Shown here one piece after another: positions 5,753 to 39,400 of a DNA stretch of 64,000 nt (within the stretch, counting starts at the first letter, position 1; the number at the start of each line of letters is the position of its first letter). The stretch comes from Protonemura montana (taxonomy: Eukaryota > Arthropoda > Insecta > Plecoptera > Nemouridae), in the NCBI GenBank assembly GCA_947568835.1, contig OX387603.1, forward strand, positions 26,746,651-26,810,650. Direction: 5' to 3'. The position numbers were made by a program, and so were the translations under genes. Below the pieces are notes generated by a model, which searched no databases, was not told the DNA's origin, and saw nothing but the letters and a program-made list of their open reading frames with translations.

Positions 5753-8304
5753 CTAGAACGAGCTCTCTCTCTTGCCTGCAACCACTAGGTTGGTCACGTG
5801 ACCCACAGACATGGTCTTGTCGAGCACTGGGCTAGGTGTCAACGCTGGGTTGTCGTAGCAACACGGACCGCCGAGCGCCGTGTCCTCGGAAGGGAAGCGT
5901 CGCTGCGCCGGCGTCGACGCGAAGGCGGCGCGTTGCGTGGCCACGTCGATGTCCAACTCGCGCGCAGGACCCGGCGCCGGGGTCACCGTCGACACGGCCT
6001 GGAACGAGTGGGAGGCGTTGAAGGTTTGAAAAGCGACGTGCCGCTCTCTGAGTTGATGATTAGCACATCAATTAGATATGCACGCGTGTCGATTTGCAGA
6101 TGATTATGAAACTGCATGAGTCATCCACTGGTCGGTTACCTGAGCTACCAGTGGAACAACAATAATCTTCAATCGCGTATTCCTCGCATGCGGTCTCTGC
6201 TTGCTTGGACGCGATGATTGGTCGAGAGTACCTGCTTCGACTCTGGGCTCCTCCGGCTTGCGCCATGGGGCAGCGTGGTTCCCGAGCCGCTATTTCCCGA
6301 ACCCACGAGAAGAAACACAAGCACCTCGTACATCGAACCATAGAACGCAGGCGCAATTCAATCTGCTTTCTCATGTAAATTAATCCGCGTGTTGTTCGAT
6401 TTAACAAGCCGGTCGTCTTGGCAACGTGAACCACGCACTATCGACCCTGGACGGCGGGTCACTGGCTGGTGAGGTCCGCGGTTCGGCCCCAGGCGAGATG
6501 ACTCATGGGTCCGAGAGGGGGGAAGGGGGAACATTCCTGCACGCCACCCTACGACACGCGCATTCACGAAGGAAATTCCCGTGGAAAGTCGGCCTTGGTG
6601 CTGACAGATGACAGCTAGCAATCCATAAAATCAAATATTTACCCCCTTTCCCCGAACTGGTCTTCGCTGATTTATTGATAAGGGGTGTTAAGCGACGCAC
6701 TGTTCAACAACGGGCCCTGTGGCACTGGTTCAATGGCGTCGGTCGTAAGTGCGTGATGGTCAAATATTGGATGCGTAACCTGACTCAACGCAGTGTTGCT
6801 TAACTTCAGTGATCTAACGAAACCGGTGTTTCCAACATGACAAACCGTTCGGTGGTCATCTATCCAATACTTGACCCAGCGCTATGTTGCTTAACTTCGG
6901 TGATCTCACGAAACCGGTGTTTCCAACACGCCTAACCACGCTCGGTGGTCACCCCTCCAATACCTGGCCAAGCGGATTGTTGCTTAACTTCAGCGATTTC
7001 ACAAGGACCGGTATACAGTGTCTACTGCACGTACGGCAAACGATTTCGGGCACCAAGTTGCACCACACGGCTGCCAATAGCTCGGCTTGAAAGTCTGCAT
7101 AAAAATGTATTCGACTCACGTTGATGGCTGCGAGCTTCTTGCGCAGGCGCACTCGGACGCCCGCCTCGTGGTGTCTCGCCTTCAGCCAAGTGAAGAGCGG
7201 CAAGGCGACCAGTGCCACTAGGACCAGCACCAGCAAGACCAGCACTGCCACCCCGAGTCGATACAGCTTATCCACGCTCTCTGCGGACAAAGATACCTTG
7301 GTCATCGATGCTTCAATGGGGCCAAGCAATTCCGTGCTATACCGTTAGCCGACATGGACCTACTTAGCCCATCTTGGCACCTAGTAAAACAACGTGTTCT
7401 GCCTACAACTCACCGATCAGGGCGTCCAGGTCTCCAGCACCGCGCTTCGCGTACAGTCGGTCGTGCAGATAATCTGCAACAGAGGGAGGCGTTTGTCAGG
7501 CTTGGAGACATTTTGGACTTCCTGGTTCCTGTCTCGTCCTGTCGAAGCGCTGCGGACACCACGTGACACGGAAGCTAGTCGTGCGTGACCGCGCGTCTCG
7601 GTCTCTGGGGCCGTGACCACGGCTCTACGCAGCAGTTTGGCAGCGCGGCCTTCTGGCTGGATGGGCTGGGCCAAAGACGGCTGGGCTGTCATGTTCACCG
7701 CCACGGCATGCTAGAGCCACGGATATTCACAGGTGGCCAGGCATACGGGGCTCTCAGATAGAGATGGCATATTTTGGAGCAAAGGAATTCAAGGGGCTTT
7801 CCGTGTCAATCTAATGGAATAAAACCTGTGAATTTGCTTCCTATATGAGTGAGAAACTTTAACTTGTATTCACTCAGCCAGGCTAAAAAGTGTGTGCAGT
7901 GCCAGACCATGGTAACAGTACATTAGTACGTACTCTAGTTTCACTCACACATTTCGATAACATTAGTTTTTGTCGAGCCTTCTATGGGGATCTGTAAAGT
8001 TTCAGTGAGTGACTTGTACTCTGGGTGCTGACATGACAGGGTGGTACGGAGAACTCTTGTCCTTGTCTGGAAAAACCCGATCTCGCCACTCACCCTGGCA
8101 ATCCTTCTGGCACTGTGCCTCCTGGTAGTTGTGTGAGCCCAGCTCGCACACATCGTTGCATGGCCGACATGCCAAGTCGAACTCTGAACAAAACTCGTGC
8201 TCTGCACACGTCTTCTGTCCACAACGCTTGCTCAGTGTCAGCCCAGCCGTCGCAACGCCCCACAGCGACGCCGTCAGAAGCGTCGCGGCCAACAGGTGGC
8301 GCAT
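5753..8304 (-). CDS. grnd: Grindelwald-like single-CRD TNF receptor
   Basis: Predicted type I membrane receptor of about 240 residues. Exons: 8094-8304, 7414-7473, 7120-7280, 5753-6043. From the Met at 8304 there is a signal peptide (MRHLLAATLLTASLWGVATA), then one cysteine-rich domain beginning KRCGQKTC and including FCSEFDLAC, CRPCNDVC and CQKDCQ. The 60-bp second exon adds DYLHDRLYAKRG. Exon 3 holds a long Leu/Val transmembrane helix followed by a basic stop (WLKARHH). The cytoplasmic tail contains NASHSFQ and CCYDNPAL. The layout and the HNY...CQDYLHD part resemble fly Grindelwald, the Eiger/TNF receptor that signals to JNK; that is recall, not a search. An upstream in-frame Met at 8346 would add 14 basic residues and hide the signal peptide. 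The acceptor of exon 4 is weak, chosen because it keeps phase, so a missed small exon in the 1.1-kb intron is possible. Confidence 0.65.
6680..7035 (-). mobile_element. 5S-rRNA-derived SINE fragment with three 5S-like heads
   Basis: Read on the minus strand, this carries three successive copies of the 5S-like head (GAAACACCGGT, AAGTTAAGCAAC, GGATGGGTGACC-type boxes, degenerate) followed by the SINE tail with GACGCCATTAGACC-like and CGTCGTTAAACA-like segments. The middle body is missing. It lies in intron 3 of the Grindelwald-like gene. Confidence 0.75.
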
Positions 8305-13777: not shown

Positions 13778-14363
13778 ACTTAGGTGCAGCCAATCGCAAG
13801 GGTCAGTAGAATTTATCACAAGAAATACAAATCGGAACTGATAACCTACAAATTCGACTACAACGACGACCACGCTGCTTGTCCCCCACCAACCTATTCA
13901 GAAGAAACATGGAGGATATATTAGTACCCTTGAAGAGACTACAAGAATAACAATAAAATCGTGCCCAAATAAAAAATCTTGTAAAATTATTAGAACACCT
14001 ATTACTTATTACCTTGAGGTAAAAGGAAAACTTGTACTGTATTTTCTAAATGGGTTTTTCTAAAGAGATAAGCTACGTTTGCCTTACCAACCAAAACTGT
14101 CAACCACTAAGACTTGCTGTCAAAGCCGAATCTAAGCAAGATTGCATTTCAAGTAATTGTTGCCTTTATAAATCTCTACAATAAATATTCCATGAATAAT
14201 CCGCGTATTTTCAGCAAGTGGACGTTAGACACTGTTTATGACACTGTTGGCTACAATTGTGGTGTGTTCGTTATATTATTATGGATAATGTCCAATTTTC
14301 CAATGCACCGACCAATACAAACAACATACGGCTCTAAGCATACGGCATGGTTGATGTTGAACG

Positions 14364-14785
14364 GTTTGGCGTGTCGGGAACACAGGTTCTCGTGAGATCA
14401 CTGAAGTTAAGTAACACTTCGCTGAGTCAGGTATTGGATGGGTGACCATCATGCATGACCAGTTATGTTCGAGAGAGAGGTTGGAGGGATGAAAGTTAGT
14501 ACAGCAACTTCACCCGCTTTGCTTATCAACCTCTCGACAGCATGGATTTGTGGAGGAATCCTGTTGTTCGAGTTGTAACGGCCTTCGGAAGGGACGTTAA
14601 GCTGGTGGTCCCATTAGTGCTATTCGACAGGGGTAGGCTACGTGCCGGCACCGGATTTCCCCTCCACCCTTGTACGCTAGGCTAGGTTCATCATCATCAT
14701 CCTCAACAGCCACTCTTTCACCGACACCATTAGACCAGTGCGACAGGGCCCGTTGAGAAAATAGCGCGTCGTTAAACACAATGAT
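14364..14785 (+). mobile_element. 5S-rRNA-derived SINE, near full length
   Basis: Starts in a 5S-like head (GTTTGGCGTG, then GATCACTGAAGTTAAG and GGATGGGTGACC), then a body with CTCTCGACAGCATGGATTTG and GGAAGGGACGTTAAGC, a CATCATCATC stretch, and a tail ending CGTCGTTAAACAC. The 5S internal promoter boxes are still readable. Confidence 0.85.
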
Positions 14786-15771: not shown

Positions 15772-18700
15772 ATGTTGGGCGTAAGAATTAGTTCGTTTGG
15801 TGAAACAGGTCTGGGTGAACCGGAACAGGATGCTAATTCAGCTTTAACAGAGCTAGACAAAGGTAAAGACTTACGTTTGATTACATACATTTCCTATAAC
15901 CTCACTTATCCCTGTAACTCTTAACCCCACTTATTTACCGGCAATTACAAACACTCTCTTTATTTCATGTAGCATTGCGGTCGGAAAAAATTGGAGAGCA
16001 ATGCGAGGCTATTGTCAGATTTCCAAGACTCTTTGAGAAGTATCCGTTCCCAATTCTGATCAATTCGTCGCTTTTAAAGCTAGCCGATGTTTTCCGTGTT
16101 GGGTAGGTCTTTGCTCTACAACTATCAACAGTGCATAATTTACTGTCTATTTTTTTTATTCCCTGATGCTCTACTATTTCAGAAACAATTTCCTGCGCTT
16201 GTGGGTCTTACGAGTGTGCCAGCAGAGTGAAAAGCACTTGGATAAGATAATCAACGTGGACGAATTTGTGCGACGTATATTTAGTGTGATACATTCTAAC
16301 GATCCCGTAAGTTTTTGTGCATTAAACGACCTTAGTGCCTCTTGTGCACGGTTGATCCAATTTCCCTGTGCAGCTATGGTTTATATCTAGGTTGCCAGGG
16401 CGCTGACCCTCCGCACATTGGGCAGCGTTGCGGGTATAATACCCGAGCGGCAGCAGGTCCACCACAGCATTCGTCGCAGCTTGGACTCACACGACATGGT
16501 CGAAGTGGAGGCCGCTACGTACGCTGCTATGCAGTTTGCTGCACAGTCCAAGTAGGGCATGGTGACAACGCTTTCATTTTCGTTTTTTTTTTAGTTCTTC
16601 TACAGCCACCCCAATCTATGGTTTCATACTGAAAGATAGACTGGGCTAGCACCTTGTTGATTGAAATCTTAAAAGGGAGCCTTATATTGTGCCACAGCTG
16701 CAAAAATTGTGCATTTTACACCACATTTTATTTAGCTAACTATCTGTACTCCTTTTATAAAAAGCTCACGAGACAATTTCTGCAAATCTGCTCAGGACGT
16801 TTGCGGTGAGCATGTGCTCGAAGATCTCTGACATGATCCGCGGACTTTCCACGCCCGCCCACATGAAGCTGCAGTTGATCCCGATCCTCCAACACATGCA
16901 CCACGACATCGGCACTGCCGCCATGGTCCGGCAACTCTGTGCCGACTTGCTGCCCAGCTATCCGGCAGAAGAGTTTGTGTTGGTCACCCTGAACACGCTC
17001 ACTCAGCTGGCTGCCGCCACCCTTGTCGACATCCCCAGTCAGGTGGCCTTGCTGTTGGGATATCTGCGTTCTGACCCGCGGTGGACAGTCCAAGGTACCA
17101 CAAGCATTTTGCACGTTATGTTTCACAATGGGCTCTTAGCGATCACCCGCCATTTATTAAAATAATGATAATAATAAATCTTTTTATTCTTAAAAAAAAA
17201 ACACGTTGCACTCTAGAAAGGTCCACACTGTTTCAGTTCACATTTCAACCTTAATGTACATAGGTACTTCAGTAAATCAACATTGTGGTCAGGTAATTAA
17301 AAATACTTTCACTGAATAAAACTAGCAGTTAATTCAAAAATTTAAACTGTGTGTTAAACTGTTTTAACATTAAAGCCATTTAACTGGTTGTTAAACTGTT
17401 TCAACATTAAAGCCATTTAACTGGTTGTGAAACATCTCCTGAAGCAATGAGTTGGAAATGAGTTAAATAATAAAAATCCTGCATAAGTATTCCCTTTTTT
17501 GAGCGCATCACGAATCTGCTTCTAATAAATATAGGTTTTTTGTCTTGTAAAATGATTGAAAGCCTTGTCTCTGTTTGCAGCCCAGTGTCTAAGGAATCTG
17601 CATCGGCTCGCAACTCATGGATCCCACCTGTGGCCGCTCGACGCTGTCGACGAAATCGTAGCTGTCGCCGAGGACCCGCCCAACGACCAGGTAAACCAAC
17701 CTTGGAACTTAAACCATGCTGAGAAGTCTGCAGGCATGATCGCCACTTTCCTCTTCAAGCTGTTTCACTGTTGAGTGTAGGTTATAGGTAGAGTTTCAAC
17801 GTCAATGTTACAGTCTCTGCGTGAAAGATGACTACCTTACCGACAAAAATGCAGAGTACCGGAACATCACGTTAAGTGGAGCCACTGTCGTATGAAATTT
17901 AATTTTGATATTTCTCGTAGGTTAACTCGCTTTTTAATATCGTTACGTGTATATCAATCGTTGAGATGAACATCGATGATTATTTTTTAAGCATGAAAAG
18001 TCTTAAAAGCGAGTTAACCTACGAGAAATATTGAAATTAAAATTCAGACGACAGTGGCTCCACTAAACGTGATGTTTCGGTACTCTGCATTTTTGTCGGT
18101 AAGGTAGTCATTTGGCGGCCATCTTTCACGCAGAGACTGTAACATTGACGTTGAAACTCTACCTATAACCTACACTCAACGGTTTCACTGTTGATCTTAT
18201 ATTCAGGTCACTGGGTCGAAATAGATGTGCGTCAAAGTGCGCCGCTCCAGAGTCAGTCTACACTACATATACAAGGCTGTGTGTGGACCTGGTGGTCAAA
18301 TATGTAGAAACTCACTGGCAAGGCAGTGGTTTGGGGTGATAACGGACATAAACTATTTTTGAAGTTCTACCGTACAAACATAGGACGCCTCTCACTCCTT
18401 GGCAGAGGAACTAGACTATGGAATAGCCGGCCATTCAATGAACTTGCCAAAAATATATTTTCAGGTATAAAATAATTCCTTGTATCAGAATCATGTACAA
18501 AATGTACGTATTAGATTGTAAAACTGTATAGTAAGTAACCACCGGACAATGCAATTCACTTATTGTGTATCATTCTAAGTTGCTAATAAAAAAAACCATT
18601 ATTATTATTATTATTAGATCTTGGAAATAGCTTGGTATAAAACGGAATGAAAGCTTTTCAAACCAAGCGTTGCTATGGCAAAAGCTAACCTAAACTGACG

Positions 18701-21700
18701 CAAGCTTACGTCTTTTCTGTTCCTGTTTGCCTGCCAGGTACTGGGCTGGGCTCTCGACACACTGCTTGCAGTCGCCAAGTCTGCAGCTGCGGTGGAAACG
18801 CAAGTCCGTGCAGATTCACGGCTGTTTCGACTTTGTGCCGATGTCAGCCTCTCAGCTGCGCCGCATATCGCCAGCAAGGCGGTGCAAGTCGTGACCAGGC
18901 TTGTGTGTCATGGGTTAGTGCCAGTCACACGCCTCGAATTCACCCGGAATTGGGCCGATCTGTAGCCTACCTTGACCTTTCTGTTCTGTGGCAGAACCGA
19001 AAGGTTTGGCATGTTGGAAACACCGGTTCTCGTAAGATCACCGAAGATAAGCAACACTGCGCTGAGTCAGGTATTGGATGGGTGACCATCATGCACATGA
19101 CCAGTTCTGTTCGGGAGAGAGATTGGAGGGATGAAAGTTAAGCAACAGTGTGCTGAGTCAGGTATTGGATGGGTGACCATCATATACATGACCAGTTCTG
19201 TTCGGGAGAGAGGTAAGAGGGATAAAAGTTAGTACAGCAACTTCATTCGCCTTGCTTATCAACCTCTCGACAGCATGGATTTGTGGAGGAATCCTGTTGT
19301 TCGCGTTGTACCGTCCTTCGGAAGGGACGTTAAGCCGGTGGTCCCCTTGGTGCTCTTCGACAGGAGTAGGGTACGTGCCGGCACCGGGTTTCCCCTCCTC
19401 CCTTTTAGACTAGGTTAGATTTATCATCATCCACTCATTCACCGACGCCATTAGACCAGTGGCTCATGGCCAGATGTCAGAACAGTGCGTCATTAAACAC
19501 CACAAATAAATAAATAATGTTCTGTGGCAGAACCGGGACCGAGGATCCTGACCGTCTTTCCAACGCCGTGGACTTGGTGGAGTCGCTGCTGTTGCTGGTG
19601 ACGACTGGGACAGCTCGTGGGGAGCTCCGAGCTTGTCTGCATTGCGCTGTGTCCCTGTGCGGTGCTCACGCGCAGCTCTGTCCACGAGTCATTGCGATGG
19701 TATGTGCATACAGGGACCCGGACCTTGACAAAAACTATTTAGACTGGGTTTCGTAACTTGTGCCTGTTACTTTGTCAAGGGTGAAAGCTGCCCTGGAAAA
19801 ATTAGTTGTTCGTTACTTAGCATTCAAAACTCAGTTTAAATAGTTTTGTCAAAACTAGTGCTAAGGTTAGAAAAAGTAGACAAGAGTCAAAAAACCATAA
19901 GGACCCCAAGTCGGTAATTGGAGGGGACAAGAATCGGGTCATTACGATTTGAACTTCGTTCAAATCCCACTGGTTTGAAAAAAATATTGTACTTTTCCAC
20001 AAAAGATGTAGATTTGTTATTCTGCTTTACTTTGACAGATTTACTGGATTGCACACAATGGACTCATAAGATCTGTTCTTAGAAACTGCTATTGAAACCT
20101 TTACTTTTATTAGAACCAAAGTGTTGAACCCAGAACAGGAATCTTAATCAATCATTTTCGAGAACCAGATCAGGAACTGGATCCAATATTTTTAAAGTAA
20201 AGAACCAGAAGGGAGCCAGAGGTGTTATCGTTATTGGTTTATATCCCCGGTTCCAAAGTGCTCCGGCTCCCAATCCATGTTGCCCCGAGCTTGTCACCGA
20301 ACTCGTCTCTCCGCGGCAGGTTTCGTCAGCTCTGCATCGTGCACAGGACCCAGCGCTGCTGCCTCCGCTCTGCGAGACGTTGGCTGCGGTGGCCGACCGC
20401 GGACCCCGAGGCTCGTTGCTTCCTGCGTTGCCTGCGTTGTTGGACACCCTGGGACGCGCAGAAGCCGGCACTGAGCACTCCCAGGCTACGGTAGGACCAC
20501 AATCATGGCATTTTAAACAAATCGGACATGGACTTAAGTTTTCTTTATTGATCTAATTCCCCTTTTGATAAATTTTCTATAGTTTTTAGTTGACGTATTA
20601 ACTTTCAACAGCGACAAAATTGACAAATTTCCTTAAATTATGCTATTTTTAGTCATCTCTCAGTTCATTACTATCAATTACAGGGAAACATATTTGGCAT
20701 TAGCATTTTCTATGAAAAATTTTGCAATTTAAGGTGCTATAATTGACATATACTATTTTAAGTAGGTTTTGAATAATTTGGAAAATTTGGTTTTGTCAAG
20801 ACTAGTGCTAAGGTTACATCAAGTAGACATGAGTCTAAACACAATCATAAGGTGCTGTAATATTTCCTACAAATTTGTTCTGCTTGTTATGGGTAATTTC
20901 ACTGAACCTTGCCCTGGCTTCGCCATGTGTTCGATCTTTCCTATGACTTCTTACACCACATTAATCGGCAAGGAGTGTGCAGTGCCTTCTTTACAAGAGG
21001 TTGCAGGTTTCTTGACTTAAACAGTAAGAAATAACAAGCAAGGAGGTTGTCAGTAAGATCCTGTCTACAGCAAATATTTTGATCGGCAGGTGATGCTCTG
21101 CACACTGGTGTTCCAAACAATGACTGGCTTCCGCTGGGCAGTGCAGCCGGGTTGCCCGGGCGACCAGCCTAGCGCCCGGCAGGCCATTGAACGAGTTGTT
21201 GCCGGTAACAACCTTTGGGAAAACTACCGCATCGCGCGATCGGCAGCTCGGTACGTCTGTTGCCGTCAACAACTGCGCAAGCTTACAGCTACAAAATTAG
21301 ATTTCCTAAAATCACTGGCATTGTGCTTGGGTGTAAAGGTTATGTCATAAATGCCAGCGCTCATGTTTACCTGTCTTTGCAAAAATTTAATTGAAGAACT
21401 CGATGGCAATATGTACCACATCTTTGTGGTACTCCATAGTTTCAAATAAGAGATATAATCGGTCGAAGCATTAAAGTGGGTTTCTTTTTGTAACCCCCTC
21501 GTGGGGAATGAAACGGGAATCATCTTCAAGTCAAAACTAAATAGGACTTAACTTCTAGGACTAAACTTCAACTCAAATAGGAGGAACTAAATATTGTTTT
21601 CCTCAAAGTGTGAAAGAGCAAATTGTATCTTTCAATACTCGTATAGACTGAAATCACTGTTACTTGTTTCAAATTTTTTGTCAACTTTGGCTTTTGCAAT

Positions 21701-24700
21701 AATTGTGATTTCAACCTGAAATCAACAAGTAATTCAATTTGATAAAAATGGATGTGATTTGCTCCATGTCGCAGGTACGGCCGGCACGGCGTGAGTGCTG
21801 ACGTCTTGAGACGCCTGCTTGCCCACGTCTCGTCAGAGCACCTGCACTTCTGGTTGGCTGGCTTGCGTGAGCTTAGCGACGGGGAGGCAGCATTGGCCGA
21901 CCGGCTTCAAAGGCCCGGCCTCGCAGACCGGCTGGCACACACTATGACCCATTACTGCAGGGCCGTAGCCGCCCTTAAGGTAAAGAACAAACTTAACACT
22001 TGACCGATTTGTCTGGTCCATTTAACATGGCCTTATAAAGAGTTGGGTAGGTCCATTACTTAAATTATTTACCTTGGTTTTTTATTAAGATGTAATTAGG
22101 TTCCTTTGATCTTCCTAACAGACAGGCTTCCTCTAAGCAGGATAACACGGTGTGGTAAAGAAGAATTAGGTCCAGTAAACCCCAGTTAATTTAGTTGCTG
22201 TTGCAAAGCTTTGTTAACTTTATACACGTTGTTGTGGTTATGGAATCGAACAATACAATTTGTTTACTGTCCCAGCAGACCCAGTTTGTGTCCCTGTGCT
22301 GGGCTGTTAGCATTTTGCAATGTGGTGCATGTAAATAACACTGTCTTAGCTTTAAATACTCAGTTTGTAAACGGTTCGTTCAAAGCCTCTCCTTTCCTCC
22401 TTGCATTGTGGTTGTTAACTGAGTGTTGCCATGGTCCCAGGCCGGCAGCTCTCCGGCAGGCAGCCTGCAGTTCCAGACTGAGTACGCCCGGCTTCGGGGA
22501 GAATTCCTGCAGAGCCTGACGCAGTTGGTGCACACCTGTCACTCTCTGTGCACCACGCCCCCTCCAGCCGTCGCCACGGCCGTGCCTGAGAGCAATCTGC
22601 AGCGGTACGGGCATGTCACTGACCAGGCAAGTGTGCAAGTGTGTAATGAAAGGACTCTGTGGTGTTTTATTATTAGAAACATTACTACCCTCTTAAAAAT
22701 TAATGCCCAAACGGGGTCTCGAACCCCGATCTCCACCTATCGCGGATATTGCTCTAACCAAATGAGCTAATACAACATTTTTGAGAGGTTAGTAGTGTTC
22801 CTAAAAATAAAATATACCTCTCATTTCATATTAGCTCTGTGGTTATCTCGGGTTGTAACGTTGGTCTGCCTGCAGCTGCGCAAGTGCGTCAAGGAGTTCC
22901 GAGTGTGTGGGGATCTCTACTGGAAGCTCTACCAGACGGCCTTTGATGCAGATCCAGCGTCACTGGCACACATACAAATGTATCCTTTGCCCGGCTTACG
23001 AAGACAACATGGGCTTTGTCGCAATGTTACGTACCATGCAATGGAAAGTCATTGTTTTGGACAGCAAACCTTTAAATTATTGCTGCAAGGGTACACAAAC
23101 ACGGCCATGTCATGTTTCCAAATTTCAATCCCTACCATCGTACAGGATGGGGCATCTGTGTATGCTATTTCTGTGATAGCCTTTCCCCTTCAGGATGGAA
23201 TATCTGTGCATGCTTTGTCCATGGTAGCCTTTGCCCCAAAAGGATGGAATATCTGTGCAAGCTTTATCTGTGCTAGCCTTTGCCTCATAAGGATGGAATA
23301 TTAGTGGTAGTGTTTGCCCCATGGGCATGAATTATCTGAGCTATGAATGTTTGGCTATGTTTTGTGCCTGTCCCGAGAGCTTGTTCCTTGACTCTTCGAT
23401 GCAGACTTCAGCAGATGTGTGTGTTGATGGCTCACAGCGTGGAGAGAGTTGCCCAGGCCAACTACCAGGACGATGTTGTGCTTGACTTCAGGTAAGTCAC
23501 TTACACCAATACAAAGTCCTGAACAAGGCAATGTGCAGCAGATAGTTGCTTAGTTTGTATCTTTACAAACCTAAAGAGTGACAGCTGGAGAGATTTTATG
23601 GTGCCAGGATTTATATATTTATTTATATATTTATTTACTTATTTTATTTTTATGTTTCATTCGTTATTCTAGAAAATGTTCTTATAATTGTGGATTGGTA
23701 ACTTTCTTTTTTGGGTGATATTCTTCAGAGCTGTATCCAGGGAATGTTTCAACAACAATTCCCCAACAATCAATCTTTAGAACAAGATTGTTATGTCTCC
23801 TAAACTGCTAAGATCGCAACCTCGTAGGTTTCTGACTGCATTTGTTCTATCGCAGCTGTGATCATGCTGGCCTGGAAGCGACCTACATGATTCGCTGCTG
23901 TCAGGAAGCAGCAGCGGTGGCTCAGCAGATGGTCTGGGCAGAGGATCAGAAGACCATCACACACCAGGTAGGTTAGATTAGGTTAGGTTAGGTTAGGTTA
24001 GGTGAATCGGAGGAGATAGACTGCTGTATGGTCTCTCAGTTCATGTTATCCATATCTGTTACCAGTGCCACCTCCCTCCAAAGTTGATTGACCACCTTCT
24101 ATTACAGCACATCGAGTGTCTGCTCAAGCAGGTCGAGATCCTGGCCGACACCTCGCTCTGTCTGCCGAGGTACTTCTTCCAAGTGCTGCAGTCCACCACG
24201 CTCACGGTAAGTGAATCGGTCCCAAGTGCAATATCGCTACGATAGGAAGACGCAGGGTGCTAAGATCCCTTGCCTTGTTTTTCCAGCTCATGGTGACTCC
24301 CAAGCCTCGAGTGCTGGGCGAGTCTATCAGTGTGAGCAGTAGCGCCCAGCTGGCCATCAAGGTGGAGGGAGTCATCCAGCACGGGAAGCGTCCGGGACTG
24401 TTCCGCAGGATCGGGGGCGTCCGAGTGACCGTCTCATCGCAGCTGCAGAAGCAGCACTCGCAGGATTCAAAGGTCAGCACAGTTTGGAGCTACCAGCCAA
24501 TCACAGGCCCCCCAAGCTTGTTAAACAGCATACATTCACTCACATGGTCTTGTTGGGAAACTTGGCTATTGGTGATTTCATTTGGGTTTCAAGCAAGCTT
24601 TATCCTTTTAATGAAAACAGTTTTAATCAATCTTATCAAAGCATTGGGAATCAAAATGTATCCTTCACAAAAGAAAGAACTTACAAAGAACAGTACATTC

Positions 24701-25708: not shown

Positions 25709-28700
25709 TCACGCTACCCCCCTGCGATACTCGCCTCTGGCTCCTCCCACCTTGTGCTCTAGCCGCACCTCTTCGATGACCATCTCGTGGCTGACTGCCT
25801 TGCACATGTCGTAGACCGTGAGTGCAGCCACGGCAGCCGCAGTCAGAGCCTCCATCTCGACCCCAGTCTGTCCTCGAGTCCTCGCTGTCGCCGTGACAAC
25901 AACGTGGTCTCCGTCCAAGGCCGCGATGACGGCCACGCTGGACAGCTGAAGGGTGTGACAGAGAGGGACGAGGTCAGGCGTACGCTTGGCGGCCATGATG
26001 CCCGCCAGCTCGGCCACGCGGAGCACATCGCCTTTCTTCAGCGCGTTCTCCGCGATCAGGGCTGCCACGACGGGGCCCACGCGGACACGAGCGGAGGCGG
26101 TCGCAGAACGCGACGTCACTTGCTTCGCGCCTACGTCGACCATCGCGGCGCGACCGGTGCTGTCCACGTGGGTCAAGCGGCCAGTGCACAGGGCACGCGA
26201 CATGGCTCGGAGTGGGCTGCGTTGCGGGGTCAGAAACTCGGGGCTCACGTTGACCATCGCGGCGCGACTGAATATGTCCACTTCCGGCAAGCGGCCAGTG
26301 CCTAGGGTACACGGCACGGTACGGAATGGCAACGTAAGCACTGAAATTTGAAGAGAAAGGTCAAGGGTCAAAGCCGCAAAGGTTCAACCTATCACAACTG
26401 AGCCCAAAGTTTGGCAGCACAGGTTTGAAAACCAAACTGGCAATAGCAAAACAGGCCCTCTTGGTTATGCTGGTATCGTTGAGTAATGTTGTAACTGATC
26501 AATGCAATGAAGCTTGATTATGAAAGAAATAAATTTGCAAAGTTGTAAGTATTTTTGGTCGTGCAGTTTGTGTGAAGGCATGAGAGGTTGGCCTGTTACC
26601 CTTTCAATCTGGCATTGGCCAATGGCTTTATTTGTAGAGGTTTGTAAGCGTAGGCCATAGTTATTATTTGTGGTGTTTAACGACGCACTGTTTTGACAAC
26701 TTGCCCTGCGGCACTGGTCTAATGGCGTCGGTGAATGAGTGGATGATGATGATGATGATGATGAACCTAACCTAGCCTCGAAGGGAGGAGGGAAAACTCG
26801 GTGCCGGCACGTAGCCTACTCCTGTCAAAGAGCACCGAGGGGACCACCGGCTTCACGTCCCTTCCGAAGGACGGTACAACTCGAACAGCAGGATTCCTCC
26901 ACAAATCCATGCTGCGAGAGGTTGATAAGCAAGGCGAATGAAGTTGCTGAACTAACTTTCATCCTTCCAACCTCTCTCCCGAACAGAACTGGTCATGTGT
27001 ATAATGGTCACCCATTCAATACCTGACTCAGCGCAGTGTTGCTTAACTTCGGTGATCTAACGAGTACAGTGTTTCCAACACGACAAACCGTTCGATGTAG
27101 GCCATAGCAAGCTTTCAAGCTGTGTTAGGTAAATATGACTGCAGTCTAGAGCAATACTTATCAGTTATCATGGTCCTAGTTACATTTGTGTCATCCACCA
27201 ATTAGAATCATTGGTCGGTTTTCCATCTGTGAAAGGTTCATCATGCCTGTAACAAGCAAGGGCTGTCAATCTTGTTGCAAAGCTCTTGTTGTCGGTGGAA
27301 ATGCAGCTAGCTGATCGGTCACTCACCGGCGTGCTGCTTCTTCTTTCGACCAACGGCAACGGCAATCATCGTTTGCAGGTCATCCTCACTACATCCGCTG
27401 CGCAACGCATCCCTGGGCAGTTAACAGACAGTTAACCTAACGATTTGTCAGTTAGTCAATTCATTTCGGGATTATCTGGGGCAAGTATATATTTTACAAG
27501 GAACGTTCACTAAAAGATAGAAGCTGTGGAAGATAGAAACTTTTAATACCATGATTTTTTGTTCCTTGAAGCTGCCTATGGGCAAGATCCTTTCCATCCT
27601 ACGTGGCCTTGGTGTTTGTGAATGGTACGGACAGAGTTTGATGCTTGGCGTACCTGAGAGAGACTTCCGTGTTTCCGAAAAGACAGACTTTGAGGTTGCC
27701 GTCAGCTGTGATTCGAAGACGGTTGCATGAGCCGCAGAAATGTTCGCTCATGGAGGAGATGAATCCCACCTGCCCTTTGAAGCCAGGCACCTTGTACGCC
27801 TGGCAAAGCACACACACATAATGAATGCTTAGAAGACTTTGGACCAGACCAAATGGTAGTCATTTTCCTAATTTGACTGGTCAGTTTTTTATTTTGACAG
27901 TTTTTGTCGGCAATATTTGCTTTCTAAGAGGGTAACAAACACTTGAAAAAGTTCAAGTGCCGAAAAGGTTGTAAGGGCATTTTAACAAAATGGGTAGAGT
28001 ATTACAGGTTGGTTTCTCGTGCATTCATATTTTATTTATATAATTATATTCACTTGTTTATTTAATTTCATAAGTATTCCTTTATGGAACTTTTAGGACC
28101 TTCAACCAACACAAAACAAGTCTGTAACATTTGGAATCCTATCAAAGTCGTTGATGCCTGACTGGTACCTTCGAGGTGTCGTTAGGCCCGTCGTTGAGTC
28201 GCTGGAATTGAGGCCAGCGCTCGCGAATACTCTGCACCATTTCAGCGTAGGGCACCATCTTGTCCCCTTCCCACTTGTTGCCGCTGAAGGGCATGTACTC
28301 GATGAACCGCACGTCAATGGCACGCTTCTCCGAGAATGCCACAAAGTCGCAGACCTCATCGTCGTTGAAGCCACGCATCACCACCACATTCAGCTGAAAA
28401 AAAATCACTAAGCTTGCACCCGAAAAACTACACTGCTTAACGATAAAGTTTCTATTACGACTTAAAGGTGTTGCTCTATTTCGTATCAAAGTGAGACCAA
28501 AAACTAGACGTGTGAATGTTAATATTAAAATGATAATAGCTCTGCTATAACTTTTAACTGTAGTCCTTCAAACAGTAATGTTAAGCAATGTGGTTTTTTT
28601 TTACCTTGACTGTGCCGATGCCCAGCTGCAGGGCCAGGTCTATGCCGGCCACGACTCGTTCCCATCCTTTGCGCCGCGTGATACGTTCAAACCGTTCCGC

Positions 28701-30275
28701 TCGCAGCGAATCTAAGCTCACGTTGACCACGTCCAGGCCCGCCCGCTGCAGGGGCACCAACTGCCGCACCAAGGCCAGCCCGTTGGTGGTCACAGCAACA
28801 GTTTCTAGGCCCGGCAACTTCTTCAGGCTAGCTGACAAAATACAAAGCAACATCGAAACAGTTTTCCAGAGCCAGCTTTGAGTTGCCTCTCGTTTGGTCA
28901 CGGCATAGGGCTTGCTCCTGGAGGAAAGGACAAAGAGACTAACGCTCTTTAAAGCCATGTTAGACGATGTGTTCGACTAGAGCTACAGGGCCTGTTGTCA
29001 AAGCTGAGCATTGTTAAGACACCAGAAACCAAGCTATCAGTCAATCTACAACAGGATTACTGAAGGCTTCTTGATCTCAATCTTGATTCCATTCTTTAAC
29101 GTTGCATTGCTTATCGCCAATATATATAACTGGGTGAGGAATAGGAGATATCTCTCACAAGCAACTTGGTTGGCAAGGCTAAGTACTAAGCTAGCTTGGT
29201 GCCAGCCATTTCTAAGAAAGTGTCGTATCGTTTAGGCAGGAATTGGTGTAATTCGGCTTGGATTTGAATGCATGGCTACCCCATGCCCTGTACTCGTCTG
29301 AGGTCTCACCGATGATGTGAACGAGATCTTTGCGCACCGTTGGTTCGCCACCTGTGAGCCGGATCTTTGTCACGCCTTCCTTGACAAATAATTCCGCTAA
29401 GCGGATTATTTCGTCGGTGCGGAGAATGTCATCTCTCGGTGTCAGCTTGACTCCTTCCGATGGCATGCAGTACTGGCCTGAAACGCGGTGAATTTTGATT
29501 ATTTTTTCTGATATTTCTGTTTATTTTGCGATTGTTTGACAAACTTGGATAAAAGTCAAACGAACATTTGCAAAATTAGTTTGTTATCTTATTTGTTTTG
29601 TAGATAGCACTATCTTTGTATTAACAGCCATAAAATATATTTTTGTTGCAAAATATGAGCTGGGACTTGTACTTGTGCGTCCCCTAAATTTTAATGCCGT
29701 GAATCGACTAGAATGCTTGCCAAGTGCAGCTCTGGATGCTGAGAGACCAGATTTACAGCAGCGTTCATAAACTAGCTGGCACTGGCACATTGATGCCTAA
29801 TCCCTGTTAGTTATTACTTGCAGGGTTCTAATATTTTATTAGATTGCTGCTGACTAGCAGCAGGTCTTTTAGCAGGTCTTTACATCTGAGGTTGCATCGT
29901 TCCGTCAGCGATATTCGCAGATATGTGTGGTGCCTGTTGAAAGTGTCCGTCAACATATTTGGTGGATTATGCAAACTCGTTTCAGGTTTCTTTGGCACTT
30001 GATGGGGCATTGAAGATTCGTTCGTCTGAAAATTGTTTGAAAAGGTCATGATGATAGTCAGAAATAATCAAAATATCATCATGTGAACAGCAAATTATGG
30101 AATCACAGAGAAACGGAAGGTTCCAATTTTTTTCGAATTGAATGTACTTTTTGTATGAATTTCTGTTGTGACATACCTTGGCGCCCGGAATAGGTGATGC
30201 AGCAAATTCTCTTGCAGATACGCATCTTTTTGATTGTAATGCCACTCGCAACCCGAATGTTGCGGCCTTTTTCAT
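25709..30275 (-). CDS. MOCS1: MOCS1, fused MoaA/MoaC molybdenum-cofactor protein
   Basis: Mitochondrial enzyme for the first step of molybdenum cofactor synthesis: the MoaA part turns GTP into 3',8-cyclo-GTP and the MoaC part makes cyclic pyranopterin monophosphate. Exons: 30177-30275, 29884-30025, 29310-29477, 28605-28831, 28169-28393, 27654-27799, 27327-27412, 25709-26340; 574 residues (human 636). The start [17 protein letters not shown] looks like a mitochondrial presequence. The radical-SAM cluster is CNLRCQYC, formed across an intron. Then come [16 protein letters not shown] and the second cluster [18 protein letters not shown]. MoaC shows [50 protein letters not shown] and TVYDMCKAV. 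The MoaA part ends GRKKKQHAG and splices straight to MoaC; the usual C-terminal Gly-Gly tail exon of the MoaA-only form was not found. The junction holds an internal duplication. Confidence 0.94.
26661..27096 (-). mobile_element. 5S-derived SINE with 11-bp target duplication
   Basis: Complete copy on the minus strand, flanked by GTAGGCCATAG at 26650-26660 and 27097-27107. It contains a (GAT)n run near 26740-26762. In the last intron of MOCS1. Confidence 0.88.
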
Positions 30276-30480: not shown

Positions 30481-33400
30481 ATGTCTCTATTTCCGGCATA
30501 TTCCAGCAATTTGAATGATGACACTCACTCTCGCGCTAGTCCAACTATTGCTGTCAGTGAATCGATAAAGTGTGGTTAGTTTTAAAAAAAATGTTTGCTT
30601 ACTTTATTTTTAATATTTTACACATGAAGTAACAACAAATAACACGCACATTTTTTTTAGAATCTTCCAAAGATAGCTGGCTGGAAAACCCTAGCTTTAC
30701 CCTCGAGATTGCTGAAATACCATTGCCATCTGGGAACTCTGCATTGCAGCATGAGAATGAGCCGTCACCCAAGACCGCCGCTTCACAAAATCAAACCTCT
30801 ACTTCTGTTCCTGACACTGATATCAAAAAGTCCATAACACAGTCACTAGTCAAACCTGTCGCTAAGAAACGATCAAAAGATGACGTAGATAATGATAAGC
30901 ACCCCAGAAGAAAGAAGAGCAAACGAAGCAAATCCCACAAACATGTTCACCGTCACAAAAGGTAAAGGGTAGTTAATAATTCTGGCTAACATTTTTCAAA
31001 ATAATTACATTTAATATTATTTTATCAGTTCCAGATCAGAAAGTGTTCCAGAAGTTGCTTCATTGCCCGAAGAAAACAAATGTTTTTACACCGACAAAAA
31101 GTCTGAAAGGGGCAATCTAAATGTTGTAAAGCTCCACAGGCCAGCTACTCCAATGTAAATCTCATTACTTTGTTTTCCTCAAACCTGCTGTTCATTAAGA
31201 GAGTTAGAAGCTAACAAAAACCAATTAACTTCAATAAATGAATGTTTTATTACAGATATAAAGCACCATATTATTTTGTGCTAGGTTTAGTGCCTTATTC
31301 GTATCAGTATGCAGATAGACAACGAAAGAAGAAAAATAAGAAGAGAAACAGGAGAGAAAGATATTTTGATAGCCGTGCAATTTACGAAGCAGAAGAAGGT
31401 GAATTGAGCACAACTGTTGGAGAAACCACTCACGAGACGACAATGGAAGGGAGTTTAACTAAACAAACTGCCGTTTTCAATAAGACTTTAGGCGAAGATA
31501 AGCACAATGTCGAGATGTGGCTGAAATACTCGGCTTTCCAGGTATGCAGGAACTTCCATCTTTCTTTCTTCAGAGCTGTGGAGATTCTGATTTTGTGGTC
31601 AGTTTATGAAAAAAACTTTCGTACTATAAGAATGCTCGGTTATATTCATCATTGCTTAACTTACGAGTTCTAGTATAGGGCACAAACAAAAATGTTCATC
31701 CATTCAATGCGACACAATGTGTTCACAATAAGACCTTGATTGCATGGTGCTAAGGTTGAATCTTCCTCCTGCCCGGCAGGACTTGGTATGTGAATTCGAG
31801 CACACATACCGCCGCGGCGGAGTTGGAGGCGGTGGAAGACGGGCAACGGCACAGCGCCAGCTCGCCATCGTGGACAAAGCACTGACCCACAATCCTGACT
31901 CAGAGCCGTTGCTATGGGAGCGATGCCGCCTCGTCAGCGAGAGTTTCCCCGGAGATGAGGCCGCAGCACAGTTCCGTGCTTTGCTGGACAAGCGGCCGCA
32001 AAGCATGGCTTTATGGCAGGTAGCCACAACGAGCAGTTTTATAGACAATTTTTAGACTCATGTCTACTTGATGTAAACTTAGCACTAGTTTTGACAAAAA
32101 CTATTTCAACTGGGTTTTGAATGCTAAGTAAAGAACAACTAAATTTTCCAACGTTTCGTTACTTGTACCTGTTACTTTATCAAGGGTAAGAGCAGTCCTG
32201 ACAATATTTCAATAATTTGTTATCGGAAATTAAGTTGTTCTTCACTTAGCATTCAAAACCCAGTTCAAATGGTTTTTGTCAATTTCATAGACCATTTTTG
32301 CTGGTCTAATAGCACTCGGGGCTAATCCAGTAAAACTATTAACAAATGTTAAAATAAAAATGAGCTGAGGGAAATGGCTCAGGCCAATTTGTACCTCTCC
32401 GCATGCCAACGTGTCCAGCATCTCATGAGATATTTTGGGACAAAACACAAGTCTTAGAAAGATCAGAGCGGCACTTGCATAAGTTGTTACTCACTTTTCT
32501 TCAACCTTCTGGTTCGAGTGCCGTTGATATTTTTTTGGGTTCAGTGGACTTGTGGTGATGTGGCAAATTATCACGAAGAGATAAGTGAAAATTATAATAT
32601 TGTGTTTTGCCACTATATTCCATCATACTAAAATCAGCAAAATTGAACACCACCATCGCAAGTTGACCAAATAAAAACAATGCGAGAGCAAACTTTTCCC
32701 CTTTGGTTATTTCAGGATTGTAATAATGATACGGATTTCACAATGACTTACTTGCCTTTGGTAGGGCTACGTCGGAGCCACCCAGTTTGCGCTGTCCTCG
32801 TGCTCCGTTGACAAGGTGTTGAGACTGTACCAGGAGGCCATGGACCGATTCCACCAGGTGCGGCGGGTGGCTGCAGCGGAAACAAGTCACTGCGAGGAAC
32901 GCATTCTCGGTTTGTGATTCTTCATTTACCTGCAGCCAATAGACCAGTGTCACAGAGACAGCCAATAGACCAGTGCCACAGAGATAGCCAATAGACCAGT
33001 GTTACAGAGACAGTCAATAGACCAGTGTCACAGAGACAGTCAATAGACCAGTGTCACAGAGGCAGCCAATAGACCAGTGTCACAGAGACAGTCAATAGAC
33101 CAGTGTCACAGAGACAGCCAATAGACCAGTGCCACAGAGATAGCCAATAGACTAGTGCCACAGAGACAGCCAATAGACCAGTGTCACAGAGACAGTCAAT
33201 AGACCAGTGTCACAGAGACAGCCAATAGACCAGTGTTACAGAGACAGCCAATAGACCAGTGTCACAGGGACAGCCAATAGACCAGTGTCACAGAGACAGT
33301 CAATAGACCAGTGTCACAGGGACAGCCAATAGACCAGTGTCACAGAGACAGTCAATAGACCAGTGTCACAGAGACAGTCAATAGACCAGTGTCATAGAGA

Positions 33401-36400
33401 CAGCCAATAATAGACCAGTGTTACAGAGACAGCCAATATACCAGTGTCACAGAGACAGTCAATAGACCAGTGTCACAGAGGCAGCCAATAGACCAGTGTC
33501 ACAGAGACAGCCAATAGACCAGTGCCACAGAGACAGCCAATAGACCAGTGTCACAGAGACAGTCAATATACCAGTGTCACAGAGACAGTCAATAGACCAG
33601 TGTCACAGAGACAGCCAATAGACCAGTGTTACAGAGACAGCCAATAGACCAGTGTCACAGGGACAGCCAATAGACCAGTGCCACAGAGACAGCCAATAGA
33701 CCAGTGTCACAGAGACAGCCAATAGACCAGTGTCACAGAGACAGCCAATAGACCAGTGTCACAGAGACAGCCAATAGACCAGTGTTACAGAGACAGTCAA
33801 TAGACCAGTGTCACAGAGACAGCCAATAGACCAGTGTCACAGGGTCAGCGCCGACACAGTGTGTCAAAGGGACAAGGCTAATCGGTGGCCGGTCCTTGGT
33901 GCTGTTGGACAGGAGCAGCCAATACAGTGTGTCAAAGGGACAAGGCTAATCGGTGGCCGGTCCTTGGTGCTGTTGGACAGGAGCAGCCAACACAGTGTGT
34001 CAAAGTGACAAGGCTAAGCGGTGACTGGTCCTTGGTGCTGTTGGACAGGAGCAGCCAATACAGTGTGTCAAAGTGACAAGGCTAAGCGGTGGCCGGTCCT
34101 TGGTGCTGTTGGACAGGAGCAGCCAACACAGTGTGTCAAAGGGACAAGGCTAATCGGTGGCCGGTCCTTGATGCTGTTGGACAGGAGCAGCCGACACAGT
34201 GTGTCAAAGGGACAAGGCTAAGCGGTGGCTGGTCCTTGGTGCTGTTGGACAGGAGCAGCCAACACAGTGTGTCAAAGTGACAAGGCTAATCGGTGGCCGG
34301 TCCTTGATGCTGTTGGACAGGAGCAGCCAACACAGTGTGTCAAAGGGGCAAGGCTAATCGGTGGCCGGTCCTTGATGCTGTTGGACAGGAGCAGCCGACA
34401 CAGTGTGTCAAAGGGACAAGGCTAAGCGGTGGGTGGTCCTTGGTGCTGTTGGACAGGAGCAGCCAACACAGTGTGTCAAAGTGACAAGGCTAATCGGTGG
34501 CCGGTCCTTGATGCTGTTGGACAGGAGCAGCCGACACAGTGTGTCAAAGGGACAAGGCTAAGCGGTGGCTGGTCCTTGGTGCTGTTGGACAGGAGCAGCC
34601 AATACAGTGTGTCAAAGTGACAAGGCTAAGCGGTGGCCGGTCCTTGGTGCTGTTGGACAAGAGCAGCCAACACAGTGTGTCAAAGTGACAAGGCTAAGCG
34701 GTGGCCGGTCCTTGGTGCTGTTGGACAGGAGCAGCCAACACAGTGTGTCAAAGTGACAAGGCTAAGCGGTGGCCGGTCCTTGGTACTGTAGGACAAAAGC
34801 TGGCTGCCAACACTGGGTTCACCATCGGCTTCCTGCCAGACCAGTTCGGATGCCAGTCGAGAGAGCTAACTGATCCCGTTCCCCAGACATGCTGCTACGG
34901 AGTGCCTTGTTCCTGCGGCAGGCTGGACTGCACGAGTTAATGTGGACGCTATTGAAGCACTACCTAGAGCTTACGTTGGGCATGGAAACCATCTCTGTGG
35001 CCAAGGGGTTCTCTGAGCGGCAAGTCATCGAGGTTGAGGAGCCGATGCTGCTGTCGAACCTTCCGCTGCCAGAGATATGGGTCCGAGTGGAAACGGTACG
35101 ATGCCCTCTGTTAAAGCGTCATCTTGGCAGAATCCTGGAGGAGGTTTCTTTTCTAGTTTTCTTTCTGGTAGGGTGCACTATTCTGTCAGAATGTTGGATT
35201 GCTTTTTGGAACATTAGAAACAGAAAACAGCAGAAAATTGTCTGTTTTTGCAAATCCCATTCAAGTCACATTATATCTTGTCGAATATCACATGAATATC
35301 AACTTTTCAAGATAGATGGTATTAAAGTCTTAAGTGTTGTAAGGAACGTACATGCTCCTGCAAAGTTTAACTTGGTACTCTTTACAGAAGACAATCACTA
35401 TTAGTTGGTATCAAAATATTTCAAAGATAATTAACTTGAACTTTCCCACTTGGAAATACTTTCTTTTTGTTATACTAAAGAAATTTAAAATCTTTGGAAC
35501 CCTTAAGAATGGGTGTTCTCTCAGAACCAAAATGTCTGGAACACTAAAACCAGAGCTGAAATCCTTTGAATGCAAATGCATTCAACCATACCTTGAACCT
35601 AAATAATTTAACCTCCAAAATCCCCGGTACAATTGACATTGACATAGACATACAATTGACATTGAAGCAATGTCAGTAGAGTTGCATGCTCAATTCCATC
35701 ACCAAATGACAGCAGTTGGGTGAATTTCAAATTGATGAAAAAATCGAGTATATTCATGAACTGGTCATGGAAATGTCAATTTGTGTTGATGTTTATATCA
35801 GAAATGTTCGTATCAATGCTACCTGACAAATGATGGGGGATTTACATGACAGAGATTGAGATGATTTCTCTGTAACAGGTTCGTGAGAGCTTTCACTGGC
35901 TGCCCTGGGATGAGGACGGAGACTGCGTGGACCCCCAGAGAGTTGTGTTTGCAGAGGACGTAGCCGAGATGATACATCCAATCACGAGCCGCCATCTCAG
36001 TTTCCGTCTTGTAGCCATCGTCATGGCAGCCTTCAAGGTGAGCTTTTGTGCTGTGTTTTTTTATTTCAATTTCAGTTTTATTTTCAGTTGTATTTCAGCG
36101 CATTCTTTGAGTTTTAAAATTTTTTGGGAACTGGGATTGAAACCATTGGTATTTTACGGCCAGTCCACCCGTGCTGCCATGGGTGTGACACCATTTGTAT
36201 TTGTATTTATTATTTTCCCGTTAACTAGTACATTATACAGAGTATGGGTATCGTTAGATTATTATTAGGTGCTATTATTAGAATAATGCCATATAATGCT
36301 ATTGTACATAATGATAAGTAATAAATGATAAATGATAATAAAATAATAATGACGGTGAAGTTATAGTGATTGATACAGATATGATAGAAGGTTAGATGTA

Positions 36401-39400
36401 AAGTGGTTGAACATAAGGTCCAGGTACTGTAAGGGGTTGGTGCAGGGATGGAGGCTTATAGGAGGTATCATGATTGAGGTTAGGAAGGAAAGGACTTGCT
36501 AATGAAGTCCGCTCTAAACCGTCTTCGTTAACTCAGAAGGCGTTGGCAGGTTAATGAACGACACTTTTCTGTGACTCTACAGGTGCCCGCGCTGCCATGC
36601 AGAGACTCAGCTGCGCGGTGGACCGGCTTGTCTGATATCGCGTGGGCAATGGACTCGGCTGAGACTCTCCTAACCGCACTTTACCCGCTGGACTTGGTCG
36701 GCGACTGTGGGATGGCGACGCTACTTTCCGAGGCTGCAGACCTTGCCACAGGACCCACGTTCCTTGCCGTCAACGCCAAGGTAACTGATGTCTGCAATCT
36801 CTGGAGCTTTGATAGAAACTATCTTTGCAGCAAAAATGTACTCTTTGTTTTGTGTTGAAGCTTTATACTTGCCCAAGATCCTCTTCGGCAACTGTAATGT
36901 TAACCTTTCATTGGTTTACTTAATCGTTATTCAATTAAAAGGTATTTTATTTTAACATATTTGGCTTTATAACCGTCAGACAAAGAGCTGTCAGTTGCCA
37001 AAATAATTTAGAAAAAATACACTAAAATCGTCTCAAAAAGCAAGTGTCCAAGTAGCTCAATGGGTTATAGCAACACCCGCGATGGGTGAAGATCGGGGTT
37101 CGATTCCCCGTTTGGGTATCAATTTTTGAGACGGTTATAGTGTTCATAATAATAAAATACCCCGCGCATTGCAAGCGTTTGCAATTTAAATAAGATTTCA
37201 TCTAAATGCCAGTCGTCTATTTCCCTGCCACTCAGAGCGGCGTTCTCGGAGAGCAGCTCTACTCTGCGTTTGTCACCAAGGTCATGCACCTCAGCGCTGA
37301 CAAGCTCGGTGAGCGCCAACGCACGGCGCTGCTCGTCTGGTGGCTGCGCTTTGAGCGCTTCCAGCTCGTGCTGGCGGAGAAAGGAGTTTGCAAAGCTCTC
37401 ACCACGAAGAAGAGGGTCAAGACCACCGTCAAACAGTTCCTCAAGATCGAACGTAACCGGCTCAACCTTCTCTTCTACCGAGAATACGCTCTCCTCGAGA
37501 GAGACTGCGGCAATCTACAGGTAGCCGACCAACACTTGAGCAAAATCATAGCCGTTATTTACAACAAACGATTAGAATCTCCAAGCCTTTGATTCGATGT
37601 TCAAACCAACTTTCAAACAATTATCACCAATTTTTATTATTAGAAACGCTCATAGCCTCTCGAAATTGATGCCCAAACAGGGACTCGAACCCAGATCTCC
37701 ACCTTTGGCGGGGTTTGCTCTAACCAACTGAGCTACTTGGTCATATAATTTTTGAGTGGATCCTAATGCATTTGATAGAATTTTTGAGAGGTTAACAACT
37801 CAATATCCCACCTTTTTGTTACTTGTACCTGTTACGAAACGTTGGGAAATTTAGTTGTTCTTTACTTAGCATTCAAAACCCAGTTGAAATAGTTTTTGTC
37901 AAAACTAGTGCTAAGAATAAATCAAGCAGACATGAGTCTAAAAACAATCATTTTGAGAGGTTATTAATGTTCCTTTAACAGAGTTTATGTTCCTTAAAAT
38001 ACTTTGCGTTTTGGAAGCATTTGCAGTTTAAATCACATTTCACGTTGTGTGTGAATGAAATTGAAATGTAATGCAACAATGAGATGCAAGCTGGATTCAT
38101 CTGTTTGATGGGAATGCTCTGCGCAGGGTGGAGTGGATTGTCTCCGCCTGGCCTTGTCAGCTGACGGGTGTGGCGTGCCCGTGTCGGGCTTGACGTGCCA
38201 AGATACGCGATCGGATCGCGCCGCGACGTTCCGCACGCTGGTCGAGCTGCTCCTGTCCGCCGGTCGCGTGGAAGCCGCCGGGAACGTCCTGGCAGCCATG
38301 GCAACCGGTCGGCCGATGGACTTGGACGCCCGGCTCGGGGCAGATCAAGTTACCGGAGACGTGTTCAGACATGTTGCTAGCGAGATACTCAGGTAGGCGG
38401 TGGGATTCAATTTCAAATTATTTGCCGTAGGATCATTTACATTGATATTGACATTGACATTGTCAAGTTTAAAAATATTAAACATTAAGAACATTTACAC
38501 AGAACTATAGCTAGAGTAATTTACAGAACTCGTTTACTAAATAAAAACATGCATAAACACATTCCCATCGAAGTGTTTCATCCTTGCTGGATCTAGAGAA
38601 GAGATGCTTTGCAAACTGTCAGTTTTGTCACCGTGAACAATGACCCTCTCCAGGATGCAATCATGGATTTGAATCCCAGTCTCCACCTGACATAAGTTTT
38701 GTTCTAACCAACTGTTATTAATGGCAGCTACGTTGTTGAGAGGATCTGAGTGCTTTGCTGAGTCAGTTTCACGTCCAAGGAGCGGAATAACGAGGGTGTT
38801 GCATGAAAGCCACTCTGTTTCCAGTGAATTTAATTTTAAGCACAAATAATGTGACAAATAATGAACAGATTGCGAGCCGATTTCATCTAGATGGCCGCAT
38901 GGGTCATTGCATTGCCCCTTGAAACATTTCTAGTGCGTCTAGGCGTCCTTGGAAGTCTTGTTTGTTTTCTGTTTGTAAAAACCGTATGGTTTGTCGTGTT
39001 GGAAACACCGGTTCTCAGATCACCGAAGTTAAGCAACACTGAGCTGAGTCAGGTATTGGATGAGTGACTATCATACACATGATTAGTTATGTTTGGGAGA
39101 GAGGTTGGAGGGATGAAAGTTAGTACAGCAACTTCACTCGCCTTGCTTATCAACCTCTCGACAGCATGGATTTGTAGAGGAATCCAGCTGTTCGAGTTGT
39201 ACCGTCCTTCGGAAGGGACGTTAAGCCGGTGGTCCCTTTGGTGCTCTTCGACAGGAGTAGGCTACGTGCCTGCACCGAGTTTCCTCTTCTCACTTCTAAG
39301 CTAGGTTAGGTTCATCATCATCCACTCATTCACCGACGCCATTAGACCAGTGCCGCAGGGCCAGTTGTCAAGACAGTGCGTCGTTAAACACCACAAATCA

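Follow-up and report, generated by a model that had tools for sequence, protein, structure and literature searches.

How might a gene continue to yield a normal mRNA when a retrotransposon has landed at the very edge of one of its exons? This question is raised by a 64,000-nt stretch of the Protonemura montana genome (hereafter the window), in which a SINE with a head derived from 5S rRNA lies one base inside exon 8 of INTS7. We assign a probability of about 0.72 to the reading that the SINE copied the exon 8 splice acceptor by target priming, and that the downstream acceptor makes normal INTS7 while the upstream one competes with it.

The joined exons match human INTS7 (7cun_G; E = 2.7e-119, residues 31-481), and a spliced alignment of the interval from 15.8 to 25.0 kb with segments of human INTS7 selected an exon 8 acceptor ending at 19530. 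The same alignment split exon 7 wrongly, taking a donor at 18905 (GTGTCA) instead of 18914 (GTTAGT). The latter was assigned by frame and donor quality, and scores 3.24 bits; on a leave-one-out scale, 11 of the other 12 donors of INTS7 score higher. Exon 8 has a length (169 nt) that is not a multiple of 3. The intron before it measured 81 nt prior to the insertion, compared with 80, 84 and 80 nt for other INTS7 introns, and now measures 617 nt if exon 8 begins at 19531. Exon 8, searched as its 56-aa translation, and exon 7 with its intron each have a single match in the genome, and these searches revealed neither an intact second INTS7 copy nor an empty allele in this assembly. The assembly represents one haplotype only, and the individual sequenced could be heterozygous for the insertion.

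Table 1. Features of the INTS7 exon 7-exon 8 region, in window coordinates.
Feature	Position	Strand	Basis
INTS7 exon 7 (numbering of the original prediction), 176 nt	18738..18913	+	Frame, human INTS7 homology; ends set by hand
Inferred pre-insertion intron 7, 81 nt: donor TGG/GTTAGT, branch-like CCTTGAC (A at 18975), old acceptor GGCAG	18914..18994	+	Sequence, scores
Target-site duplication proper, upstream copy, 13-14 bp; acceptor AG 18993-18994	18982/18983..18995	+	Direct repeat; boundary from family copies
5S-derived SINE, sense: two 91-bp head monomers, body, A/T-rich tail; first 4 bases match exon 8	18996..~19517	+	Rfam, repeats, consensus
Weak donor-like GT, GGATGG/GTGACC; would close an open 87-nt SINE exon, in frame, immediately before the TGA	19082..19083	+	Sequence scan
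In-frame TGA reached from the upstream acceptor when the element is retained	19083..19085	+	Frame reading
Donor-like GAG/GTAAGA, two substitutions from family GTTGGA; would close a 218-nt exon (18995-19212) with frameshift and stop	19213..19218	+	Consensus, scores
Donor-like AGG/GTACGT, one substitution (C to G at 19371)	19371..19376	+	Consensus, scores
Branch-like CATTAAA/ATTAAAC in SINE tail, 33-34 nt before the downstream acceptor	19496..19497	+	Branch-point matrix from general knowledge
Target-site duplication, downstream copy; acceptor AG 19529-19530 and first base of exon 8	19518..19531	+	Direct repeat
INTS7 exon 8, 169 nt, donor ATG/GTATGT at 19700	19531..19699	+	7cun_G homology, spliced alignment, single genome match

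The element is bounded by a perfect 18-bp direct repeat, TGTTCTGTGGCAGAACCG, at 18982-18999 and 19518-19535, with 536 bp from start to start. When up to three mismatches are allowed, this 18-mer has exactly two matches in the window, compared with a mean of 0.02 after shuffling. The repeat and the 5S-headed element between its copies bear out the original prediction of a SINE insertion with a target-site duplication, including the 536-bp spacing and the exon starts at 18995 and 19531, as GGCAG ends at 18994 and again at 19530. The predicted repeat length of 17 bp must give way to 18 bp. Similarly, the proposal that the duplication carries the acceptor and the first bases of exon 8 was half right: the acceptor AG is inside it, accompanied by one exon base only.

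The true extent of the duplication depends on where the element begins. A search of the genome (258 Mb, 34 contigs) gave 45 matches and 40 scored candidates, the best of which are 90-95% identical to the window copy. We fetched 39 related loci and built a consensus from 33 near-full-length copies, which were picked as the best matches to the window copy; six others were omitted as 5'-incomplete. The consensus opens with ACCGAACGG, its start also being given as ACCGAACGGTTTGG, and 23 of the 33 copies begin exactly at ACCG, preceded by A in 6, C in 10, G in 5 and T in 2. Because most family copies start in this way, the ACCG at 18996-18999 is best assigned to the SINE itself, as its 5' end, and its match to the ACCG of exon 8 at 19532-19535 would be either a coincidence or a microhomology join. 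With the family boundary at ACCG, a 17-bp target duplication was rejected in favor of a duplication proper of 13-14 bp, where the range reflects that its first T may belong to the SINE tail. The element is therefore placed after the first base of exon 8.

We also tried two further readings of the repeat and rejected both. Joining through 5' microhomology as a property of the whole family is not borne out, as the repeat enters the element by at least one base at 5 of 16 loci when about 4 are expected by chance (our own expectation). The four bases at the window copy are the longest such run among these 16 loci with a repeat, out of 40 examined. The identity of the two duplication copies is not informative either, as 28 unchanged bases would be expected in about four of ten cases at ~3% private divergence (our own arithmetic).

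The 5S origin of the head is evident from a match to Rfam RF00001 (5S rRNA) at 18996-19116 (121 bases; 59.2 bits, gathering threshold 38), and the two head monomers occupy 19044-19134 and 19135-19225. Repeats of 9-20 bp at the family boundary accompany 15 of the 39 other fetched copies as well as the window copy (16 of 40 loci), and those of the other copies stop at or near the family 5' boundary; at the threshold used, no flanking repeat was detected in the remaining 24 of 39. The family thus combines a 5S-derived 5' head with dispersed copies that carry target-site duplications of variable length, as do the SINE3 elements, which are 5S-derived SINEs such as HaSE3 of the insect Helicoverpa armigera (PMC3272025). 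This likeness is one of architecture (5S rRNA-derived head, body and target-site duplications). In contrast to HaSE3, the head of the present family is a 91-bp unit in variable number, and the words 'tandem' and 'monomer' are absent from the main text of PMC3272025.

The window copy differs from the family consensus at 23 of 514 columns, and 16 of these 23 differences are shared with at most two of the 33 other copies. This divergence suggests that the insertion is not recent but of some age. A 27-mer from the family body occurs exactly 2,472 times in the genome, and we calculate that about a dozen acceptor-duplicating insertions would be expected before selection, assuming ~100,000 acceptors (our own arithmetic). 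Against this estimate, the window insertion serves well to illustrate an event that was to be expected. At another copy of the family (L031; G000 C14:9481267-9482194), the target duplication ends in TTTTCAG; no clear gene was seen there that would make it a second acceptor duplication.

Several observations concern the family more broadly. Six more copies or fragments reside in the window, at 6684-7012, 14359-14779, 26664-27094, 38981-39398, 48548-49035 and 56632-57035. Among the fetched copies, the 91-bp head unit is present from one to at least five times. A head 23-mer containing GTTGGA has 17,521 exact occurrences in the genome, and 33 among the matches listed fall within 3.8 kb at G000 C1:990133-993885, mostly 91 bp or a multiple thereof apart. 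In unit number and spacing, the SINE head is thus also satellite-like in behavior.

Two acceptors now precede exon 8, and we compared them using acceptor and donor matrices built from 12 other introns of this one gene, with leave-one-out scores for those 12. From the 18 introns of the spliced alignment, 11 were used unchanged and seven were dropped (the target intron, three of the misplaced exon 7, and three in the poorly aligned segment 23448-24012), and one more (17691-18737) was delimited manually. For canonical donors and for branch points, the matrices derive from general knowledge. The upstream acceptor scores 8.96 bits and the downstream acceptor 7.42 bits, where the leave-one-out maximum of the 12 others is 6.5; among the 3,924 AGs in the window, they rank in the top 1.1% and top 2.2%, respectively. 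The best branch-like score is 5.31 upstream (19 nt before the AG) and 3.09 downstream (34 nt before it, in the SINE tail), compared with 1.18-6.11 for the 12 introns. Pyrimidines number 12 upstream and 8 downstream at positions -20 to -5 (8 to 14 in the other introns), and the AG-free stretch before the acceptor spans 29 nt upstream and 45 nt downstream. Only about 13 bp of the acceptor region was copied, and the upstream copy retains the original branch point and the greater part of the pyrimidine tract. Both acceptors look usable, with the upstream one appearing the better of the two. Use of the downstream acceptor is plausible because its score is not below the range set by the other 12 acceptors of INTS7, and it seems a credible site built from the target duplication and the SINE tail.

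Reading frames narrow the possible products considerably. When donor 18914 is paired with each AG from 45 bases downstream to 19620, only 19530 leaves the frame of exon 8 open; 15 additional pairs, whose donors are weaker or odd, likewise preserve the frame, two of them via 19530. The expectation that the downstream copy would give normal INTS7 therefore agrees with the frame scan, in that with donor 18914 only 19530 is predicted to rebuild INTS7 without element sequence. The expected truncation from the upstream acceptor likewise holds if the element is kept, the frame running for 29 codons before the TGA. That prediction overlooked donor-like GTs inside the element at 19082, 19213 and 19371, because of which a SINE-derived exon is possible. 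Stops are present in the exons 18995-19212 and 18995-19370. GTs at 19004 and 19013 would close open exons of 9 and 18 nt, which are too short to be likely. The 23-mer carrying GTAAGA, as found at 19213, has 27 exact copies in the genome, versus 17,521 for the GTTGGA form.

Insertions of this kind are already in print for a human Alu, and 5S-derived SINEs are known in insects. In NF1 patient UAB-R10408, a sense AluY lies at c.1642-1_1642; its target duplication, AAAAAATTCAG, measures 11 bp and includes CAG, and exon 15 is skipped (PMC3219598). The INTS7 locus is an acceptor-duplicating insertion of the same type: a sense SINE sits at a 3' splice site, with the acceptor AG inside a short target duplication. 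The two differ in that the NF1 duplication holds no exon base and the outcome is skipping and disease, whereas the INTS7 duplication includes part of the pyrimidine tract. Because the NF1 insertion still causes exon skipping despite a copied CAG, copying the acceptor AG is insufficient in itself.

A second precedent is offered by Introners, which recruit splice sites from their own target-site duplications and so resemble the present case in how a splice site is supplied (PMC9860276). Introners generate introns de novo within exons and are for the most part interpreted as DNA elements, whereas the INTS7 SINE lengthened an existing intron from 81 to 617 nt. We did not classify the element as an Introner, as donor 18914, the branch-like site and the old acceptor all lie outside it, so that the 81-nt intron predates the insertion.

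What is shown here, namely the SINE and its flanking repeat, the family boundary, the reading frames and the single gene copy found, can be joined in one account. Target-primed reverse transcription would have placed the sense SINE one base into exon 8, and a staggered cut would have doubled 13-14 bp that include the acceptor AG, with the 5' end of the element matching by chance, or being joined through, the four further bases ACCG. Normal INTS7 mRNA would then most likely come from the acceptor at 19531, with the AG and the final ~11 bases of the intron provided by the duplication, and a branch-like site and a spacer by the SINE tail. The original upstream acceptor, with the old branch point and pyrimidine tract, probably stays as a competitor, and its products, whether the element is retained or a SINE exon is closed at 19213 or 19371, would mostly carry a stop.

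Integrator is generally needed, and INTS7 is needed in animals. Given this need, the lack of a second gene in our searches and an insertion of some age, some normal splicing of INTS7 is likely, in whatever share. It is plausible that the insertion was tolerated because the acceptor was copied.

The allele might instead be damaging, with the upstream acceptor winning or exon 8 being skipped, most transcripts being non-productive, and survival depending on heterozygosity or a low need for INTS7. The greater strength of the upstream acceptor, the rather weak exon 7 donor (3.24 bits) and the NF1 precedent of exon skipping are consistent with this outcome, which we nonetheless consider unlikely: the divergence of the element counts against an insertion that is both very recent and still rare, unless the source copy already had those changes, and no second INTS7 locus was found in the genome. 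An origin of the repeat by chance or as an assembly effect, or entry of the element by another route, is scarcely credible. Although the end of the element itself accounts for 4 of the 18 repeat bases, the other 14 bp adjoin the family-defined ends exactly, 15 of 39 other copies have repeats of 9-20 bp at the same boundary, and shuffling gives an expectation of only 0.02 for matches to the 18-mer in the window.

Use of a SINE exon, either as a poison exon (18995-19212 or 18995-19370, both with stops) or as an in-frame insertion of 87 nt (29 codons), strikes us as improbable. The GAG/GTAAGA site at 19213 has a canonical score of 10.27, close to the 10.33 of the top-scoring donor among the other 12 in INTS7, and it and the site at 19371 both arose by substitution from the family sequence. 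Furthermore, the 87-nt form is open, and by best donor site the window copy comes first among 34 when scored canonically. This argument is post hoc, however, and the rank drops to fifth of 34 with the INTS7 matrix; moreover, two above-threshold sites also occur in 2 of 33 other copies on the canonical scale and in 1 of 33 on the INTS7 scale. With a rank of 1 or 5 depending on the matrix, we make no claim of selection for donors in the element. It is highly doubtful that the old acceptor and the new donor at 19213 (GTTGGA to GTAAGA) form a poison exon that is in use and controls INTS7 levels. Integrator processes spliceosomal snRNAs, and if such an exon were real, it could link INTS7 and the supply of snRNAs in a feedback loop.

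The preferred reading, in which a copied acceptor makes normal INTS7, concerns an insertion that is real but of an ordinary kind, and it leaves knowledge of retrotransposition or splicing unchanged. Its value lies in bearing, as a natural test, on how large a part of a 3' splice site needs to be duplicated before an insertion at an exon edge can be survived: at INTS7, about 13 bp was copied and joined by branch-like sequence from the SINE tail, versus 11 bp in the NF1 case, where splicing failed (PMC3219598).

Other repeats and genes were noted in and around INTS7. Intron 6 contains a near-perfect palindrome at 17767-18183, whose arms measure 107 nt (94%) and 64 nt (98%); it is perhaps a MITE-like element. 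Seven copies of a TAGGT unit, which we take to be the insect telomere motif TTAGG, lie inside the gene at 23969-24003. Beside INTS7 are MOCS1-like exons at 25709-29520 on the minus strand, with MoaC and radical SAM matches above cut-off and a Mob_synth_C match below its cut-off, and an NRDE-2-like exon at 31732-32055 on the plus strand, with a match below its cut-off. Two adjoining tandem arrays, one of 35 units of 26 bp and the other of 14 units of 68 bp, occupy 32933-34795, and arrays with a 49-bp unit, possibly related to each other, are present at 23154-23301 and 41859-42400.
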